A model generated the notes under the pieces. That model was not told where the DNA came from, made no database searches, and was given only the letters and a program-made list of their open reading frames with translations. The translations under genes and the position numbers were made by a program. A stretch of DNA of 64,000 bases from Lentisphaerae bacterium GWF2_49_21 (lineage in GTDB: Bacteria; Verrucomicrobiota; Lentisphaeria; Victivallales; GWF2-50-93). Where the stretch lies: positions 1 to 64,000 of the forward strand of contig MHBH01000080.1 of NCBI GenBank assembly GCA_001804805.1, read 5' to 3'. Below are positions 12,594 through 64,000 of the stretch, piece after piece (the first letter of the stretch is position 1; each line of letters opens with the position of its first letter).

Positions 12594-12600
12594 TATGGCC

Positions 12601-54552: not shown

Positions 54553-55249
54553 CATCACATATGAAAAATAAAACTTTCTTGAATGAAGGCCGGCACCATG
54601 CCAATGCCGTTAACTTAAGTGTAACATTTTAATAATATGAGAGTTAGATTGTTTTTCCTCTTTACGCATGGAATGCGTTAGGTAATAAAGCCTATGGTTT
54701 CAACCATAGGTATTGAATCCCAAAATTTGTTTTGCCCTGAAGGGGCAGAGTATATTCCGTCCCTACAGGACGAATCATCTTTTATACGAAACCTGTGGCT
54801 GAAGCCACAGGCTATATTACTCAATCCCTTCAGGATTCGTCATCAGAATATCAACGCATTCGAGGAATATTCCAGGGCCGTCGCGGACATCTTCGTCAAG
54901 GACGCCAAGTCGCAGAAGCTCCCGATCGCTAAATGCTTCAAATAAGATATTCGGCCACAGACTTTCACTGGCTAACCGGCCACAGACAACTCGGATATTT
55001 CACCACGAAGGGCACGAAGTCCACCAAGGGGAGTAATGCAAACATATTTTACAGAATTAAACTTCGTGAGCTTCGTGCCCTCTGTAGTGAAAAACTCCTG
55101 ATTTGATGTATTGTTTGAAAATTTTAATCACTGTGCAAAGGGGATCTTATGATATCTGGAAAAGTTGTCCGTTGTTTTGGGAAAGATTTGTTTCATTGGA
55201 TGCATTAGTTGCGTTGATTTCATCAAGTACTGTCTTCTGCAAGCTTCCA
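54553..55249. repeat. Repeat region with possible gene remnant
   Basis: CCTATGGTTTCAACCATAGG (near 54691-54710) and a GGGGCAGAGTATATTCCGTCC unit (about 54738) are copies of repeats seen at 22165-22245 and 36320-36400. The stretch 54847-54945 encodes INAFEEYSRAVADIFV and ends LPIAKCFK in a codon-biased frame, resembling the end of an unidentified protein. A GGCACGAAGT inverted pair lies near 55010-55085. Confidence 0.45.
54847..54945 (+). pseudogene. Possible C-terminal gene remnant
   Basis: About 32 codons reading NINAFEEYSRAVADIFVKD and ending with KCFK have GC-rich third positions like the real genes and stand out from the repeats that precede them. The parent protein is not recognised. 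The frame upstream is made of the CCTATGG-type repeats, so the fragment has been cut off by repeat sequence. Chance cannot be excluded. Confidence 0.3.
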
Positions 55250-55286
55250 CAGAAATAAAAAAGGAGCCGTTTTTAGACGGCTCCTT
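55250..55286 (-). terminator. Rho-independent terminator of SWIB gene 1
   Basis: AAGGAGCCGT (55261-55270) and ACGGCTCCTT (55277-55286) form a 10-bp stem. On the minus strand it runs into TTTTTTATTT (55260-55251). It lies 21 bp beyond the SWIB stop and has a sister at 58835-58868. Confidence 0.85.
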
Positions 55287-55307
55287 AATGAAAATTGTTC
55301 CCCGGCC

Positions 55308-55553
55308 TTACGAAAGGTGCTTGCTTACAAGCTTGGTCATGTCGAACATCGATACCTGATCCTTCTTGAAGATCGGCTTGAGCTTGTCATCGGCGTTGAT
55401 CATGCGCTTGTTGTTCTTGTCCTGGAGGTCGTTCTTCTTGATGTAGGCCCAGAGCTTCCTTGTGACTTCCGTCCTTGGAAGCGGATTTGGACCCACGATC
55501 GCCGCCAGAGTTTCACTGGGTTTCACTGGTGTCATGAACTTCGAATTCGCCAT
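55308..55553 (-). CDS. SWIB/MDM2-domain protein, 81 aa
   Basis: The protein is a lone SWIB domain. Residues LAAIVGPNPLPRTEVTRKLWAYIKKNDLQD are the family hallmark, followed by the NKRMINADDKLKPIF segment and a DQVSMFDMTKLVSKHLS tail. Bacterial SWIB proteins occur in chlamydiae and relatives, sometimes fused to topoisomerase I, and may bind DNA or proteins. AGGAGG precedes the ATG. A paralogue at 58889-59062 lacks 24 residues of the middle. Confidence 0.88.
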   Translation of the reverse strand: MANSKFMTPVKPSETLAAIVGPNPLPRTEVTRKLWAYIKKNDLQDKNNKRMINADDKLKPIFKKDQVSMFDMTKLVSKHLS

Positions 55554-55699
55554 TCTTTCCTCCTATTGTTTTAGGGGACATCCATGTTCCCCTGATTTTA
55601 AACTGCCTCAAAAATAGCAGGGCGGTGTAAAAATGCAAAGATGGAGTCTTTCAAAGGATGTGTATATTCAAATTCCAAGTTTCCAGTATCGAGCAGCAA

Positions 55700-56857: not shown

Positions 56858-57054
56858 GGACAACCTCTTTTTTATAAGTGCCATTCCCATTCCATTTCGA
56901 ACCCTAACTCCGTATTTTAGGTGGTTAAACTTGAAAAAGCAATGGGTGAACTGGGATTCTTCCGGATAATGGTATGAACCAGATGTTTCTTCTTTGAAAT
57001 TAGCCATGATTGCCAGTATCTTGTCCGATTGAAAAATATAACTCCGGAGGAATT

Positions 57055-58344
57055 ATGCTCCACATGAAAATGAAACCGATTTGCCCGCTATTCATTGTTT
57101 TTCTGCTGTCAATAATGCTTTCCGCCGCAGATTCCAATCCAGTGATCGTCAAGAATGAACTGGTGCTGGAAAGCGGTCCGGGCAGATATGCGCAGGTCCG
57201 CCACATAGTGCTCAAGGGATCATATGAGCAGATCGGAAAGGCCCTGGGCGAAATCGCCAGGAAGGACTACAAGGCAAATCTCGTCAAATACGCCAGTCCC
57301 ATATATGCCAAGGCCCGTCTTGAATACATGAAGAAGAACAATCCGCCCATGGCGCAGTACATGAAGGGCATCGCCGGCGCCTACGGGCTCTCCCTGGAAA
57401 ATACAGACTTCGATACCAGCTATCTTTATTACTGCATGGACTCCCCGAAATGTTCGGCGGTATTCTTCCCCGCAGAGATATCCGCGGACGGGAAGAACTT
57501 CTATGTCAGCAACAGGGACTACTATACTGCAGGCATGTCGGAGATCATGGGAGGCGAAAAGAAGCCGGGCGAGATTGACTTCCTGTCGCGCCTCTTCGTG
57601 ATCGAAACTTATCCTGACAATGGATACGCTTCGATCGGGATCGGCGGACTCGACCTGCTCAACACACGCATTGATTCTGTCAATTCAAAGGGTCTTGCCG
57701 TAGCTGTCCTTGAGGATGACACCTTGGGCATGGAGCACACGAACAAGGATCTTTCACGGCAGACCGGACTGACCCAGTACCAGACCGTGCGGCTCATCAT
57801 CGACACCTGTGCGACGATGGATGAGGCGAAGCAGGTGATCCTGAACAACAAGATATCCACATCAATGATGCCGGCCCACTTCATCGTCGCCGACAGTTCC
57901 GGCGCTTCCTTCATCTATGAATGCTCTCCGGACGATTTCAGCGACCGCATCATCGACAGCGCCAAGGGAAAGCCTGCGGTGATAACCAATAATTCAGTCT
58001 ATCAATATCCGACCGTCGACAAACTGCCCGAACCTTCAAAGGACGACTATGACACCTTCAACCGGTTCCGCAGGCTGGTGAACTTCGTGGATTCCCACAA
58101 GGGCAAATATACTGCGGAGGACGGACAGAAGGCCATGGGCCTCGTCTTCGGCCGTGTCGATGAAGCTTCCGAAGGCGGACCCCACCTGCTGCCGCTGAGG
58201 ACGCTGTATACCACCGTGGTCAACATTGATGAAGGGAAGATATCGGTGAGGTTCTATCAGAAGGACGGCAAGCTTGATGAAAAGACCAGGCTGCATGAAC
58301 TGATCTTCACCGAGCCCCTGGAATTCCAATTGAAGAAGCAATAA
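57055..58344 (+). CDS. Secreted C45-type Ntn acyltransferase/peptidase-like protein
   Basis: The start at 57055 follows GGAGG and opens a signal peptide (MLHMKMKPICPLFIVFLLSIMLSAADS); total 429 residues. The sequence matches the C45/AAT family: YEQIGKALGEIARKDYKANL at the start, Cys133 in KCSAVFF as the expected Ntn nucleophile, NRDYY, and NSKGLAVAVLEDD. In acyl-CoA:6-APA acyltransferase the nucleophile follows Gly; here it follows Lys, so self-cleavage may differ or be absent. It probably cleaves or transfers an acyl amide outside the cytoplasm. The SHOCT/PH gene starts 1 bp after its stop. Confidence 0.82.
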   Translation: MLHMKMKPICPLFIVFLLSIMLSAADSNPVIVKNELVLESGPGRYAQVRHIVLKGSYEQIGKALGEIARKDYKANLVKYASPIYAKARLEYMKKNNPPMAQYMKGIAGAYGLSLENTDFDTSYLYYCMDSPKCSAVFFPAEISADGKNFYVSNRDYYTAGMSEIMGGEKKPGEIDFLSRLFVIETYPDNGYASIGIGGLDLLNTRIDSVNSKGLAVAVLEDDTLGMEHTNKDLSRQTGLTQYQTVRLIIDTCATMDEAKQVILNNKISTSMMPAHFIVADSSGASFIYECSPDDFSDRIIDSAKGKPAVITNNSVYQYPTVDKLPEPSKDDYDTFNRFRRLVNFVDSHKGKYTAEDGQKAMGLVFGRVDEASEGGPHLLPLRTLYTTVVNIDEGKISVRFYQKDGKLDEKTRLHELIFTEPLEFQLKKQ

Positions 58345-58345
58345 C

Positions 58346-58840
58346 ATGAGTCTCACAGACGAACTTCGCAAGCTTGCGGAACTCCATGAGGAGGGGCATC
58401 TCAGCGATCAGGAATTCGCCGATGCCAAGCGTAATCTGATCTCGGGAGATGGGAGGCTTCAGGACGAATTGGATGAGGAGGAAGATGAAGGCTCCGGGGA
58501 ACAGGAGGGCGAAACTGAGGAAAAGACTTATCAGGCGAGCCGCTGGTCGTCAGGAAATTTCTTTTTCCCGGACAGGCTGACCTTGTCGGGCGATGGCATG
58601 CTGTTCCAGAAACGTGCGCTGTTCGGCTCCAGCGAGGAGCATATAAACTACCGGGCAGTTGCATCGATCCACATCAAGAACGGTATTTTCCTGTCCGATG
58701 TCAATATTGAAACTTCCGGAGGCAGCCAGCCGATCTTCCTGAACGGCCTGTGGAAATCCCAGGCCAGGGAGATCCAGGACACGATACGTGCAAATTTAAA
58801 GCCTGAACAACGGCAGCCAGGCGCCGGTCATCAGAAATAA
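58346..58840 (+). CDS. SHOCT plus PH-like domain protein, 164 aa
   Basis: Residues 3-32 (LTDELRKLAELHEEGHLSDQEFADAKRNLI) are a SHOCT motif, a short oligomerisation helix pair. An acidic linker (35-60) leads to a PH-like domain (about 68-150: RLTLSGDGMLFQKRALFGSSEEHINYRAVASIHIKN, then IETSGGSQPIFLNGLWKSQAREIQDTI). Such bacterial PH proteins usually sit at the membrane. The start codon follows the C45 stop directly, so translation is coupled. Its first 14 codons are nearly repeated at the start of the gene at 60689. Confidence 0.78.
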   Translation: MSLTDELRKLAELHEEGHLSDQEFADAKRNLISGDGRLQDELDEEEDEGSGEQEGETEEKTYQASRWSSGNFFFPDRLTLSGDGMLFQKRALFGSSEEHINYRAVASIHIKNGIFLSDVNIETSGGSQPIFLNGLWKSQAREIQDTIRANLKPEQRQPGAGHQK

Positions 58841-58868
58841 AAAAGGAGCCGATGTTGGTCGGCTCCTT
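58835..58868 (-). terminator. Rho-independent terminator of SWIB gene 2
   Basis: AAGGAGCCGA (58843-58852) and TCGGCTCCTT (58859-58868) form a stem followed on the minus strand by TTTTTTATTT. It is nearly the same as the terminator at 55250-55286. On the plus strand it overlaps the stop of the SHOCT/PH gene, but the T-tract there is poor. Confidence 0.8.
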
Positions 58869-58888
58869 CTTAAAAGTGTTCCCCTTTC

Positions 58889-59062
58889 TTACGAGACGTG
58901 CTTGCTCACAAGCTTGGTCATGTCGAACATCGATACCTGATCCTTCTTGATGTATGCCCATAGCTTCCTGGTGACTTCCGTCCTTGGAAGCGGACTTGGC
59001 CCCACGATCGCCGCCAAGGCCTCACTGGGTTTCACTGGTGTCATAAACTTCGAATTCGCCAT
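58889..59062 (-). CDS. Truncated SWIB-domain protein, 57 aa
   Basis: The protein is colinear with the SWIB protein at 55308-55553 but passes directly from LWAYIKK to DQVSMFDMTKLVSKHVS, losing 24 residues (72 bp). The ends of the deletion are 8-bp repeats TCAAGAAG on the coding strand. Substitutions elsewhere are few and conservative. The missing part includes a helix and turn of the SWIB fold, so the product is probably unable to form the normal domain, although the reading frame and ribosome site (GGAGAAAATC region) are kept. It may be a decaying duplicate or a regulator of its full-length copy. Confidence 0.72.
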   Translation of the reverse strand: MANSKFMTPVKPSEALAAIVGPSPLPRTEVTRKLWAYIKKDQVSMFDMTKLVSKHVS

Positions 59063-59231
59063 GATTTTCTCCTTCTGTTCCAGGTTCAATTGATTATAAA
59101 ACTGCCTTAAAAAAATAGCAAGGCGGCTTAAAAATGCAAAGACGGAGGCTTTCAAGCGATACGGATTTGCAAATCAACAGTATAAGATTTAGGTTCCATT
59201 TAGTTTCAAAGATTCACAGGAAGGAACATCC

Positions 59232-59642
59232 ATGAGATTGATCATACTGATAGTCGTAGACGTCCTAATCGTAATAGGCATCATCGCCATCATCATGTCA
59301 ATCAGGCGCCGAAAGGACAATGCCAGCACAAACCTTCATCTGCGGAATCCGTCCCCGGGGGGCTGGAACTGGAGGCTTGCTTCAGGGAAACAAAAGCCTT
59401 CCGAAGATGTCGTCAATGAACTCGGGGATAAGGAGTCAGTTCCAGAACCTGATCCAAAACAGGAGGGAATGGCTGTCCAGACATGTTCGCTGTGCGGCGC
59501 GCCGATGGTCCTGAGGGCGGCGCAGAAGGGCAAATATGCGGGCAAGCCATACTTCGGCTGCTCCAAATATCCCAAGTGCGAAAACACCTCGCAGTATATT
59601 AGCCTGCGCGACACGAAGATCATGAAGAGCATACTGAGATGA
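59232..59642 (+). CDS. Membrane-anchored topoisomerase-type zinc-ribbon protein
   Basis: This 136-residue protein has an N-terminal membrane helix (about 2-23: LIILIVVDVLIVIGIIAIIMS) and a variable linker. The C-terminal zinc ribbon of the zf-C4_Topoisom type has Cys in CSLCGAPMVLR and in FGCSKYPKCENT. In topoisomerase I these ribbons bind single-stranded DNA; here the ribbon is tethered to the membrane. AGGAAGGAAC precedes the ATG. A function in DNA uptake or nucleic-acid sensing is possible but not shown. Confidence 0.75.
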   Translation: MRLIILIVVDVLIVIGIIAIIMSIRRRKDNASTNLHLRNPSPGGWNWRLASGKQKPSEDVVNELGDKESVPEPDPKQEGMAVQTCSLCGAPMVLRAAQKGKYAGKPYFGCSKYPKCENTSQYISLRDTKIMKSILR

Positions 59643-59848
59643 AAAAATTCTTGTCAGTATAATGGCCAAGATGCTGCGGTATTCGCACCTTTTTCCAGCA
59701 GCAGTTTTATCAAGCATCGGATATCATTCTAGGGAACCTCTATTATCAAATCTGCTTGACATATTGGTTCTCCATGTAACAGTACGGACATATTCTTTGT
59801 AAATAATAAAAGCCGGGGGGTGCCATTAATTAAGGAAGGATCATACCG

Positions 59849-60172
59849 ATGAGCGAGCCCGTAAAACCCCTCAGGCTGAAAATCAAATCAAGAGTAGTCC
59901 TGCATACGCAGAACAGCCGACCGGCACAGATGACTTCTTCGTCCACCCAGATGCCTGATCCCCTCCCTATGGCGACAGTCGCCGGACTTGAGGAACTTGT
60001 CATGTCCGGTCACATCCTGGGCATGAGCGCATCCGTGCAGAACGACCGCTTCTGCCTTTCCGCCTGCATAGAGAACAATCCCGGCCTCCAGTTCATAGGA
60101 CAGGGATCAAATGCCGAAGAGGCAATGGCCGATCTGAAGGCCAAGGTGCTTGAACTAGGCCTGGTGATATAG
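59849..60172 (+). CDS. Hypothetical protein, 107 aa
   Basis: The protein is not recognised. A disordered, Ser/Pro-rich N-terminal half (SRPAQMTSSSTQMPDPLP) precedes a small alpha/beta part (FCLSACIENNPGLQFIGQGSNAEEAMADLKAKVLELGLVI) that resembles HicB-like or dodecin-like strand-helix units without a clear match. AAGGAAGGA precedes the ATG. No operon partner is seen. Confidence 0.6.
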   Translation: MSEPVKPLRLKIKSRVVLHTQNSRPAQMTSSSTQMPDPLPMATVAGLEELVMSGHILGMSASVQNDRFCLSACIENNPGLQFIGQGSNAEEAMADLKAKVLELGLVI

Positions 60173-60218
60173 GCTTGAAACTGGATACTCGCAACTTGAC
60201 ATTTGACGCAGGCAGATG

Positions 60219-60259
60219 GTAAATATTCACTGAACAATGTTCGTTCAGTAAATATTTAC
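60219..60259. repeat. Hairpin repeat beside the SAP-like gene
   Basis: GTAAATATT (60219-60227) pairs with AATATTTAC (60251-60259), with ACTGAAC/GTTCAGT inside. It is related to the hairpin at 11839-11878. It lies just past the end of the minus-strand SAP-like gene and could end that transcript, though there is no T-tract. Confidence 0.5.
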
Positions 60260-60262
60260 ATC

Positions 60263-60460
60263 TTACGCCTCGAGGCAGTCTGTGCGCCAGTAGCATTTAT
60301 CCTGACCGCATGTGGCGGCTGCGCCTGTGCCATAGCACTGGGAGTTGCCCTCTGCAGCCTGGATGGCGCGGATTATTTCAACCTTCTTCGCGGTCTTGTC
60401 GAGAGAAAGCTTAAGTTCCCTCGCCTTCTTCTTGACTTCGACGATGTTCAGTTTCTTCAT
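60263..60460 (-). CDS. Small SAP-like protein with Cys-rich tail
   Basis: This 65-residue protein begins MKKLNIVEVKKKARELKLSL, with the SAP-like helix-turn-helix continuing KTAKKVEIIRAIQAAEGN. A tail with three Cys follows (QCYGTGAAATCGQDKCYWRTDCL, read in two parts). Relatives of this layout occur in several anaerobes; the Cys-rich tail may bind a metal or form a disulfide. GGGGGAATT precedes the ATG. The role is unknown. Confidence 0.72.
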   Translation of the reverse strand: MKKLNIVEVKKKARELKLSLDKTAKKVEIIRAIQAAEGNSQCYGTGAAATCGQDKCYWRTDCLEA

Positions 60461-60656
60461 AATTCCCCCTATGTTAATTTTAAATATTGGTTCTGATTTT
60501 GAATAATTTTCTAGTATACATGCTAAAATTTAAAATGCATATGCGATGGTGGAAAATTGTCACAGGCCTGTTCCATCCTGTCTCCTTACCTGTCCCCGCA
60601 CCTGTACCGGCCTGTGCCGACAGCCGGCCATTGGCAAAGTACAGGGAGGGAATGTA

Positions 60657-60684
60657 TTGTTAGTAAAAGCGAAAGAAGTATAAT
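60657..60684 (+). promoter_or_regulatory. Promoter of the SHOCT-signal-peptide fusion gene
   Basis: TTGTTA (60657-60662) and TATAAT (60679-60684) are 16 bp apart. Transcription should begin near 60690, that is at or next to the ATG at 60689, implying a leaderless or almost leaderless mRNA. No ribosome site precedes the ATG. Confidence 0.6.
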
Positions 60685-60688
60685 AGAC

Positions 60689-62356
60689 ATGAACCTTACT
60701 GACGAACTGCGCAAGCTTGCAGAACTCCATGCCAGGAAATATGCGGCGGTCATCCTGCTGATGACGGCTTCCGCATTGCTCGCGCAGGATGCCGAGAGGA
60801 AAAAGCAGACCTCGGTGAGATTCCATTCAGGCAGTGTGCTCGCGGCGGAAATCCTTCCTGACAATCCCGAGATCCCCATAATCGTCAAAAGGGTGAGCCC
60901 CCTGGAACCTCCGTCCAGGATTACTTCGGACGTTGCATATGCCGCAGTCACGGTGAAGCTCGATCCGGGCAGGAGCCTCAGCGTCTATGACTACGTGCTC
61001 GTAAACAAGAGGAAGGACGAGTTCAAATGCATAGGCATCCGCGAGGAGGAGGGAGACTACGATTATGAGAAATGGGAGTTCGATACCACGAGAGCTGACA
61101 AGCTCTACACGCTTCTCTTCAAGGTGCAGCTGCCTTCCTTCAACGAGGGTATGTCCTACTCGCTGCGGTTTGCGCTTAACAAAAGCAAGGTGGAGGAGCT
61201 TTCTCTCCCCTTCGTCAAGATAGGAGGGCCATTTACTTCTCCTTCAAAAATTCCTGCCGAAGGGATGCTCGGAATAGATCCTTCAAAGACGGTAGAAGTC
61301 AAGGCGGAAACCGCAAAGGCCGGTGAACCAAAAGCCGGCAAGCCTGCCGAAAATGCGAAGAAGACTGAAGAACCTCCCAAGAAGGCTGAGACAGCGTCGC
61401 CTGAAGGCATGAAAGTTGACAAGTCGGCCAAATGGTGCGCCCTCACATATCCTGAGAAGTCTTCTGTCGGACAGACCATGGAAGTCAAGGCGAAGATCAC
61501 CGGGCTCAAGGCGCCCACGAAGCTCTGCGCCGATCTGCACTGCCGCACGACAGGGCGGGTTTATGCCGGACCCTATTCAAGCGCCGAACCGCAGGAAATA
61601 AAGGCGGATGGCGAATACACATTCAAGTTCGACATCAAGGACAAGGACAATCTAGAGTCGGTGCATCTTCTCGTCTTCCAGTCCCCTACCGGAAATTTTG
61701 ACGACCAGAAGGCTTCAGTGACGGGACCTGACATAATGATATCGGGTGCGACAAAGGTCGCTGTTCCCGAGAAACCAGTCATTGCCAAGGAGGAAGCGGG
61801 CAAGAAGCTTCCCATCGATGACGGGGGATATATCCGAAGCTGGCTGGCTCTGCCTGCGATTCCCCTGAACACCAATATCTCCCATACGGAGGAGATGCTT
61901 AAACCATTTTTGCAGAAGGATTTCTTCCCCAACCAGAAGACGGCCACGCCTAAGGAAAATGACAAGGTCGCTGTTGACGGCAGGGAGATGGCGTGGAAGG
62001 CCTATCATACGGACGATCCCTGCTGGAAATTCAATTCGCCTGTCGACAACTCGCTCTATTATGTTGTTGCATACGTAATCGCCGAGCAGGACATTCCCAA
62101 CGTAATCTTGTCGATTGGATCGGATGACGGCTCGATGTGGACAGTGAACGGGGTTGAAGCGATCAGGGTATATGCTGGGCGTGCAGTGGAAAAGGATACG
62201 GACAGGTCCCAGCCCCTGACATTGAAGAAAGGCACGAACGTCATCCGGGCTTTAATCATCAACGGAGGAGGAGATGCCGGTGTATGTGCCAGGCTTGTCG
62301 ACAAGGATGGAAATCCTGTCAAGAATATCAAGGTTGCCACTGCTCCTGCGAAGTAA
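60689..62356 (+). CDS. Exported multi-domain protein with SHOCT-derived N-terminus
   Basis: This 555-residue protein starts MNLTDELRKLAELHARKYAAVILL. Codons 1-15 match the SHOCT/PH gene at 58346 (37 of 43 bases). From residue 16 comes a normal signal-peptide core (RKYAAVILLMTASALLAQ). A beta domain (about 35-195), an Ala/Lys/Pro-rich linker (about 210-250), an Ig-like part and a C-terminal PA14/galactose-binding-like domain (about 385-540: IRSWLALPAIPL, YYVVAYVIAEQDIPNVILSIGSDDGSMWTVNG, LKKGTNVIRALIINGGGDAGVCARL) follow. The latter type is common in PVC secreted proteins and is likely a binding module. Confidence 0.7.
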   Translation: MNLTDELRKLAELHARKYAAVILLMTASALLAQDAERKKQTSVRFHSGSVLAAEILPDNPEIPIIVKRVSPLEPPSRITSDVAYAAVTVKLDPGRSLSVYDYVLVNKRKDEFKCIGIREEEGDYDYEKWEFDTTRADKLYTLLFKVQLPSFNEGMSYSLRFALNKSKVEELSLPFVKIGGPFTSPSKIPAEGMLGIDPSKTVEVKAETAKAGEPKAGKPAENAKKTEEPPKKAETASPEGMKVDKSAKWCALTYPEKSSVGQTMEVKAKITGLKAPTKLCADLHCRTTGRVYAGPYSSAEPQEIKADGEYTFKFDIKDKDNLESVHLLVFQSPTGNFDDQKASVTGPDIMISGATKVAVPEKPVIAKEEAGKKLPIDDGGYIRSWLALPAIPLNTNISHTEEMLKPFLQKDFFPNQKTATPKENDKVAVDGREMAWKAYHTDDPCWKFNSPVDNSLYYVVAYVIAEQDIPNVILSIGSDDGSMWTVNGVEAIRVYAGRAVEKDTDRSQPLTLKKGTNVIRALIINGGGDAGVCARLVDKDGNPVKNIKVATAPAK

Positions 62357-62412
62357 GATACTGAATCTTACTTCAGTTTGATTATAATAACATCCAAGGA
62401 GACCAACAGGAA

Positions 62413-63447
62413 ATGATCATATCATCTGGAATGAAAGTGTTTGTTACCGGGGCTTCCGGCCGTATCGGAAAGCACGTCGTCAGGAAGCTCGCGTCGTCAG
62501 GCTACCGCGTGAAGTCGTTTGACAGGGCCGAACCTGAACAGACGCTCCCCGACGTAGAATATGCGCACGGCGACATCAACGACTTCAATTTCGTCCTCAG
62601 CCATATGAAGGGCGCGGATGCCGTCGTCCATCTCGCGGCACTGCCTGCGCCAGACAGGGGGACATCGCAGGAAGTCATCAGGATAAACGTCCTCGGGACG
62701 TTCAACGTATTCCGGACAGCCATCGAGAACGGAGTGAAGAAGATCGTGCAGGCCAGCTCCATCAACGCCCTCGGTTCGGCATACGGGATAAAGAAGTTCA
62801 ACGTCCAGTATTTCCCGATCGACGAGGAGCACCACTCCTCGATAACCGATCCTTATTCCCTCTCCAAGAAGATGGACGAGGATATTGCGGACTACTTCTG
62901 GCGCAGGGAGGCGCTGTCAAGCTTCTCCCTGAGGTTCCCGGGCGTCATGGACACGGCGACATTCCAGTTCGGACATATGGACAGGGAGCTCATCCTGAGG
63001 GCGATCACGGAACTCGAGGAGATGCCAGTAGATGAGAGGATGAAGCTGATAGAGGACGTCTTCAAGGACATGGAATCCGTCATACAGGGCTGGAAGAAGG
63101 GCAAGATCTCGGAGATGGAGGATCCTGTCCTGCAGATGAAGATGATCAAGGCGAGGATCATATTATGGGCGAGGAAGAATTTCTGGACCTACCTCGACTA
63201 CAATGACTGCGCCCAGTCGGTGCTCAAGTCGCTGCAGGCGGACGTGAAAGGCTCGCATGCGCTGTTCCTGAGCGCGAAGAGCAACGGGACAGCCTTCGAC
63301 ACCATGCGCCTCATCAAGGTCTTCTTCCCCGAGGTCAAGGAGTTCAAGAAGGAGATAAAGGGATTTGAACCGGCGGTCAGCATCGACAAGGCCGTGAAGA
63401 TGATCGGGTTCGCTCCGGAATATGTAATTAAGACGGGTAAGGAATAG
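62413..63447 (+). CDS. NAD-dependent epimerase/dehydratase family protein
   Basis: This 344-residue extended SDR has the Rossmann motif VTGASGRIGKHVV near residues 10-22 (TGxxGxxG). HLAALPAP follows, then a catalytic region with SSINALGSAYG and the YxxxK pair in DPYSLSKK. The C-terminus binds the substrate in sugar-nucleotide epimerases. An insertion around 195-250 is highly charged (ELEEMPVDERMKLIEDVFKDMESVIQG). AAGGAG lies upstream. ATG at 62431 is an alternative start. The substrate is unknown; a sugar nucleotide is usual for the family. Confidence 0.82.
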   Translation: MIISSGMKVFVTGASGRIGKHVVRKLASSGYRVKSFDRAEPEQTLPDVEYAHGDINDFNFVLSHMKGADAVVHLAALPAPDRGTSQEVIRINVLGTFNVFRTAIENGVKKIVQASSINALGSAYGIKKFNVQYFPIDEEHHSSITDPYSLSKKMDEDIADYFWRREALSSFSLRFPGVMDTATFQFGHMDRELILRAITELEEMPVDERMKLIEDVFKDMESVIQGWKKGKISEMEDPVLQMKMIKARIILWARKNFWTYLDYNDCAQSVLKSLQADVKGSHALFLSAKSNGTAFDTMRLIKVFFPEVKEFKKEIKGFEPAVSIDKAVKMIGFAPEYVIKTGKE

Positions 63448-63457
63448 AACTGCCATC

Positions 63458-63802
63458 ATGAAAAATGTACTTATCTTTATTGCTTCTTTAATTTTTAAGC
63501 TATTCGCTCTTTCTGCTTTTGTCTTTGCTATGTATTTTCTTCTAAAATTCAATCTTCCATCTGATAAATCTACAGCATGGGGATATCTAATTTACATAAC
63601 GATTGGAATTTCTCTTCAATTCGTTTTTGGTGTTTTTGGGATGTTAATATCTCGTTTTCTTGTTTGCAGCACTCCGACTTGGAATGCGAAATATATAAAA
63701 TGCCTAAAAGTGGTTAACATATCAAATTTTGCAGCACTTATAATTTCAGGTTTAATTCTTCTATCCCAATTAATACTTTGGGTAATTGAACTTATGGCGT
63801 AG
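63458..63802 (+). CDS. Three-span membrane protein, 114 aa
   Basis: Hydrophobic segments lie at about 3-30, 42-66 and 88-110. The protein is not recognised. The gene is AT-rich compared with the preceding epimerase and has no ribosome site. It starts 10 bp after the epimerase stop, so it may be translated from the same mRNA. Composition suggests a recent arrival or low expression. Confidence 0.5.
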   Translation: MKNVLIFIASLIFKLFALSAFVFAMYFLLKFNLPSDKSTAWGYLIYITIGISLQFVFGVFGMLISRFLVCSTPTWNAKYIKCLKVVNISNFAALIISGLILLSQLILWVIELMA

Positions 63803-64000
63803 TATAGGTGGAGCTGTTGGTCTTCAGGGACGGGGAGTTCAAGTCTCAAAACGATTAAAAGCCCAAAACTTGTAGGAGTTCACAGCTTTAGATGTGTCTT
63901 GAATAGGAAACGGATGTGATATGTCGCCACCCTGCGGGGACTTACTGTTTTAGATAAATTAATCACCCCACGCTTCGCATGGGGCTACAATATTTCGCCT
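63803..64000. repeat. Terminal repeat stretch
   Basis: No gene is seen before the window ends. CAAAACTTGTAGGAGTTCACAG resembles units near 41750 and 44060. An inverted CCCCACGCTTCGCATGGGG hairpin lies at 63965-63983. Confidence 0.4.

Follow-up and report, generated by a model that had tools for sequence, protein, structure and literature searches.

A gene for a putatively exported protein with a 5′ end resembling that of a neighboring SHOCT gene in a Lentisphaerae bacterium

The window, by which is meant the whole 64,000-nucleotide stretch of Lentisphaerae bacterium GWF2_49_21 DNA analyzed here, carries close to its end a gene whose product begins with MNLTDELRKLAELHARKYAAVILLMTASALLAQDAE and whose first codons resemble the start of an upstream SHOCT/bacterial-PH gene (Table 1). 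No family could be assigned to the encoded protein by Pfam, NCBIfam or PDB-sequence search and no previous account of the gene was found in the literature. Its N-terminal domain is widespread in the order. The AlphaFold2 model, built from a five-sequence alignment, was poor (pLDDT 45.9). Membership in the SHOCT family was taken to mean a full two-helix motif of about 28 residues detectable by the Pfam model, and by this measure the protein stands outside the family, giving no match to PF09851 up to an E-value of 1. The SHOCT/PH label of the upstream gene is itself near-threshold, as both of its Pfam scores lie just below the curated cut-offs (26.6 against 27 bits for SHOCT and 20.4 against 23 for bPH_3).

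Table 1. Genes and sequence features at the chimeric locus, in window coordinates.
Feature	Position	Strand	Description
SHOCT/bacterial-PH gene (donor family)	58346..58840	+	164 aa, intact; Pfam SHOCT E 4.6e-6, bPH_3 E 7.6e-4
SHOCT-gene part matching the captured start	58344..58388	+	From the repeat search
Stretch like the sequence directly before paralogue G000:C69 (L063)	60618..60664	+	Probably native 5′ flank; moderate evidence
Promoter-like TTGGCA-18-TATTGT	60631..60660	+	9 of 12
Promoter-like TTGTTA-16-TATAAT	60657..60684	+	Flagged by the initial annotation; consensus match only, 10 of 12
24-nt leader	60665..60688	+	Holds TATAAT at 60679-60684; none of the SHOCT upstreams matches it significantly
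Chimeric gene	60689..62356	+	555 aa; SHOCT-derived start, signal peptide, N-terminal domain, middle part, C-terminal module
Captured SHOCT-gene start	60689..60731	+	ATG plus 13 codons (MNLTDELRKLAELH) and one base
Native signal peptide remainder	60732..60790	+	ARKYAAVILLMTASALLAQD; R/K pair and hydrophobic core; orthologue alignment begins here
NAD-dependent epimerase gene	62413..63447	+	Synteny anchor; also downstream of the G001 orthologue

The initial annotation had described a 43-base match between the two gene starts that gives way abruptly to signal-peptide sequence, and both parts of this description were borne out: 60689-60731 is identical to 58346-58388 at 37 of 43 positions, and the likeness ends after 60731, where signal-peptide sequence follows. 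A repeat search recovered the same pair as 45 nt at 87% identity (58344-58388 against 60687-60731), and at the protein level 13 of 14 residues are shared in the same start-codon register. When the SHOCT 5′ region (58330-58530) was searched against the 5.9 Mb of the organism's own genome, 60682-60731 was recovered with an E-value of 1.3e-8; the next match reached 0.02 over 24 nt, and nothing besides the query and 60682-60731 fell below that value. A yardstick for chance is provided by the relative G003, in which a 27-nt match at 93% identity (E 0.007) corresponds to an unrelated helix (...LTELRKLAE...). The match between the starts is far beyond chance. Across 384 gene starts of this genome (about 0.48 Mb sampled), the pair 58346/60689 is the only one of this strength that is registered on both start codons and ends inside both reading frames, and no second case of start capture was found among them; the other matches, judged by coordinates alone, look like paralogues, repeats or out-of-register matches. 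The capture is a single event and not a system.

Comparison with related genomes indicates which state is ancestral. The protein is matched in 48 of the 60 genomes searched, with one full-length orthologue, from the same-genus Lentisphaerae bacterium GWF2_50_93 (G001; MHBI01000062.1), that is 73-74% identical, covers residues 15-555 and has the same epimerase gene downstream. This orthologue (gene start ATGAGATTCGTATTC, protein start MRFVFRTFAAAILLMTVSALSAQD) lacks the SHOCT piece and has a plain short signal peptide; no SHOCT-like sequence lies between its ATG and the in-frame stop nine codons before it, and its DNA likeness to the window begins at 60733. In an alignment of 14 homologues, an extra DELRKLAELH after the fourth residue is present in the window protein alone, and the SHOCT piece is absent from all 13 others, the orthologue included; the N-termini of further homologues that were inspected are ordinary as well. 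Residues 1-8 were matched in the 60-genome protein search by nothing but the window's own entry, and the junction, searched as a degenerate pattern, occurs in one of the four genomes of the genus, its own. The initial annotation had proposed that a SHOCT-gene start was fused to a signal peptide and had suggested a search for orthologues without the fusion, a shared N-terminus in all of them being the sign of an old family feature. Such a shared N-terminus was not found, and the proposed origin is upheld by the orthologue and 12 further aligned homologues without the piece. The borrowed n-region also stands, though its given size of 15 residues does not: 14 codons are SHOCT-like, and the N-terminus is 10 residues longer than that of the orthologue. 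An old family feature was rejected, as the orthologue and paralogues are without the SHOCT piece. Because an unfused orthologue and homologues exist together with a genus-wide SHOCT gene of like N-terminus, sequence comparison identifies the gene as a derived 5′-end chimera, known as a fusion from one genome and compared with one full-length orthologue.

The donor family is confined to 4 of the 60 genomes, which are all four of the genus, and its members begin MNLTDELRKLAELR (G001), MNLAEELRKLAELH (G002), MNLTDELRKLSDLH (G003) and MSLTDELRKLAELH (window). The captured 43 nt are identical to these genes at 38 positions in G002, 37 in the window, 35 in G001 and 30 in G003. The SHOCT genes of the three relatives start with MNL(T/A)... 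and the window's own copy with MSLT..., so that at codon 2 it is the window's SHOCT gene itself that is the odd one out; the captured piece differs from it at this codon and at four synonymous ones. The captured MNLTDELRKLAELH is nearest to the family consensus and closer to the genus start than the window copy is, and because of this better fit the capture is not recent; probably it either took place before codon 2 changed in the SHOCT gene of the window or drew on a different copy of SHOCT. Fourteen codons are too few to tell constraint on the captured piece from chance. Two copies of a SWIB-domain gene (− strand) lie with their flanks at 55250-55673 and 58832-59174 and are 79-91% alike by piece; the SHOCT gene has its 3′ end within the flank of the second copy.

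Upstream of the start codon, the TATAAT does end 4 bases before the ATG, as had been reported. The region 57000-64000 holds 14 promoter-like sites against 7.3 expected in shuffles, and therefore neither of the two sites in Table 1 is compelling. A promoter at 60657 would normally start transcription at about 60690-60692, which is within the ATG. The leaderless transcript proposed by the initial annotation is possible from the spacing, and needs an unusually short discriminator. From the site at 60631, the leader would be about 22 nt. A TATAAT ending 0-4 nt before the ATG is rare, occurring at 5 of 242 sampled gene starts in this genome, and promoters with 10 of 12 matches are so placed at 3 of the 242 against 0.5 expected from local shuffles, the chimeric gene being among the 242; a genome-wide leaderless signature was set aside, as these figures are a hint at most. 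A Shine-Dalgarno (SD) core stands at the right place in 92 of the 242 starts, against 30 of 242 in a control window, and a start without a strong SD, such as that of the chimera, is therefore normal in this genome. An AATATT/TATATT box lies 8 nt ahead of the ATG in paralogues of the secreted gene from two species (L063:635-2260, − strand, and L064:1643-3262, + strand), which hints that such near-leaderless starts may be common in the small family to which they belong. Elsewhere, at window position 12595, a TATAAT with an upstream TTGACT box is separated by 1 nt from the first ATG of an open reading frame; either this start too looks leaderless or the start codon has been set wrongly.

The body of the chimeric gene is under purifying selection, with a dN of 0.161, a dS of 0.837 and a dN/dS of 0.19 over 540 codons compared with G001; within the first 34 residues, 24 codons could be aligned, and these give a ratio of 0.56. 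Recognition by Sec was judged by a positive n-region, a hydrophobic core of at least 7-10 residues and small residues before the cleavage site. Work cited in PMC2805444 found lower export rates where the n-region charge was zero or negative. The R16/K17 pair and the hydrophobic core are intact in the chimera, where the residues ahead of the core include three acidic ones and carry a net charge of +1, compared with +2 in the G001 orthologue; on a simple scale the peak 11-mer hydropathy is 2.54 against 2.35 in the orthologue, and ASALLA precedes QD. The initial annotation had suggested that the extra residues may alter export. Sec export is probably kept, since the R/K pair and the core remain, and a charge of +1 with this pair close by also argues for it.

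The best explanation of these observations, to which we assign a probability of about 0.75, is a 5′-end chimera made by capture of a short fragment. A piece of a SHOCT-gene start (43 nt coding, possibly up to 67 nt with the 24-nt leader) would have been copied into the start of the gene for the exported protein, displacing the native ATG together with about five codons. It would now provide the start codon and 14 codons, read in one frame with the old signal peptide, and an intact SHOCT gene stays 2.3 kb upstream. The native flank would be kept up to about 60664, translation would start at 60689, and the protein would still be exported by Sec with a longer n-region; as this would be cleaved off along with the rest of the signal peptide, the mature protein would be unchanged. 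The event would have been tolerated rather than being an adaptation. The boundary in the coding sequence lies no more than a few bases from 60731. Upstream, 60618-60664 aligns to the bases that immediately precede the start of the C69 paralogue of this genome, with a score of 36 that is the best of 242 gene upstreams and is reached by 0 of 20,000 dinucleotide shuffles, and the aligned stretch stops 5 nt before the ATG of that paralogue. Against this, 49 of 20,000 random upstream pairs score as high, an unrelated place outscores the match in a wider scan, about a dozen upstreams were tried, and the chimera's upstream gives no significant alignment to that of the direct orthologue in G001; for these reasons an insertion of 43-67 nt is favored over a larger exchange with moderate weight. 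The G002 homologue of the secreted gene begins MNLTVKI, and the first four codons of the chimera could therefore be native and the insert even shorter. Two candidates were discarded in the upstream comparisons, a donor leader, as 60665-60688 matches the region before none of the four SHOCT genes, and a match of GAAAGAAGTATAATAGAC to the orthologue's upstream, which is reached by 266 of 500 shuffles and is put down to chance.

An exchange of greater extent is possible though unlikely; a second SHOCT locus, since lost, would have contributed the promoter and leader as well as the gene start, and the secreted protein would now be under SHOCT-type control. It would agree with the missing alignment of the sequence upstream of 60689 to the orthologue, and with captured codons that fit the SHOCT starts of other species as well as that of the own copy, as a lost second copy would; the chimera's upstream, however, has no significant likeness to any of the four SHOCT upstreams, and the stretch at 60618-60664 is like the sequence that precedes a paralogue of the recipient. 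That the fusion silences export, either because the acidic helical extension holds the protein in the cytosol or because the gene is decaying, is improbable: three acidic residues were brought into the n-region, and the ribosome-binding-like AGGGAG before the orthologue's ATG is missing in the chimera, but the 555-codon frame is open, dN/dS is low, the R/K pair and the core are preserved, and an SD core is found in just the 92 of 242 genes noted above. It is quite improbable that short-fragment capture was followed by retention of the helix for function, its acidic/basic amphipathic prefix slowing or redirecting signal-peptide recognition together with a near-leaderless start after the TATAAT. 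On the same slender odds, this would mean an ESPR-like control of export or a cytosolic plus an exported pool, and the agreement of the 14 residues with the genus SHOCT consensus despite synonymous drift of the DNA would, just as doubtfully, reflect constraint.

Very improbably, translation starts elsewhere than at 60689, leaving the SHOCT-like codons untranslated or inside a longer protein; the frame is open upstream to a TTG at 60557 and no strong SD stands before 60689, but the chimera's ATG is exactly homologous to the start codon of the SHOCT gene, and no other in-frame ATG follows until residue 25, which lies within the hydrophobic core and comes too late for a signal peptide. An artefact of assembly or binning is scarcely credible even for a junction seen in a single metagenome-derived genome of a genus whose named relatives are MAGs, as reads would not be misjoined over a repeat as short (45 nt) and as diverged (87% identity) as this one, the frame is unbroken, and the downstream synteny is as in the relative. 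Convergence, by which common helix-forming codons would have given a SHOCT-like start by chance, is extremely improbable; the G003 match to an unrelated helix illustrates how such a likeness can arise, yet its E-value of 0.007 compares with 1.3e-8 for the fusion, whose 43 nt are in register with both start codons.

In terminal reassortment of type III effectors, the moved N-terminus carries a promoter and a secretion signal. The chimera shares with such cases a 5′ end from one family and a remainder from another, with unfused forms of both, and differs from them in that the moved part brings no signal peptide and the upstream matches no SHOCT upstream. ORPHETs (PMC3826837) are likewise N-terminal gene parts reused before another gene, and the N-terminal copy may sit near the complete allele; unlike ORPHETs, the chimera places a non-secretory start before the recipient's own secretion signal, and no type III system is implied. 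The ESPR or long N-domain signals of autotransporters resemble it in having a charged N-terminal extension before an ordinary n-h-c signal peptide (PMC2805444), but they are put at about 40-50 residues or more, some 25 of them in the extension, whereas the chimera's presequence is about 30-34 residues, with no sign of an autotransporter and no ESPR or autotransporter family found in Pfam and NCBIfam scans. With SHOCT proteins (PF09851) it shares 14 residues that are the start of a genus-specific SHOCT/PH protein, but these contain the first helix only, the rest of the motif being missing; oligomerization by SHOCT was tested and not supported in PMC3581485. Promoter capture through small duplications in bacteria (PMC11111574) is alike in that a copied 5′ segment can give an old gene a new start region; the chimera has no tandem duplication left, and a promoter gain would be conjectural.

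The chimera is genuine, of a known kind and not very recent. It provides a clear small-scale bacterial case in which the start codon and first codons of a gene have been replaced by a copy from an unrelated neighbor, and for which the unfused orthologue and the two parent families are all available; it is a natural experiment in how much foreign, partly acidic sequence a signal-peptide n-region tolerates; it changes nothing known about export or SHOCT domains.

Two repeated elements also lie in this part of the window. An Rfam Acido-Lenti-1 RNA (RF01687, 42.7 bits; among the RNAs listed in PMC2864571) at 54792-54837 (+ strand) falls within a dispersed repeat of about 250 bp (54600-54851), which has dozens of matches, up to 98% identical, in its own genome and the genus, and the RNA may belong to a mobile or REP-like repeat rather than being a single-locus sRNA. 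A 46-bp palindromic element at 60218-60264 (TAAATATT...GAACAATGTTC...AATATTTA) occurs at many places in all four genomes of the genus (G000-G003), at about 87-98% identity.
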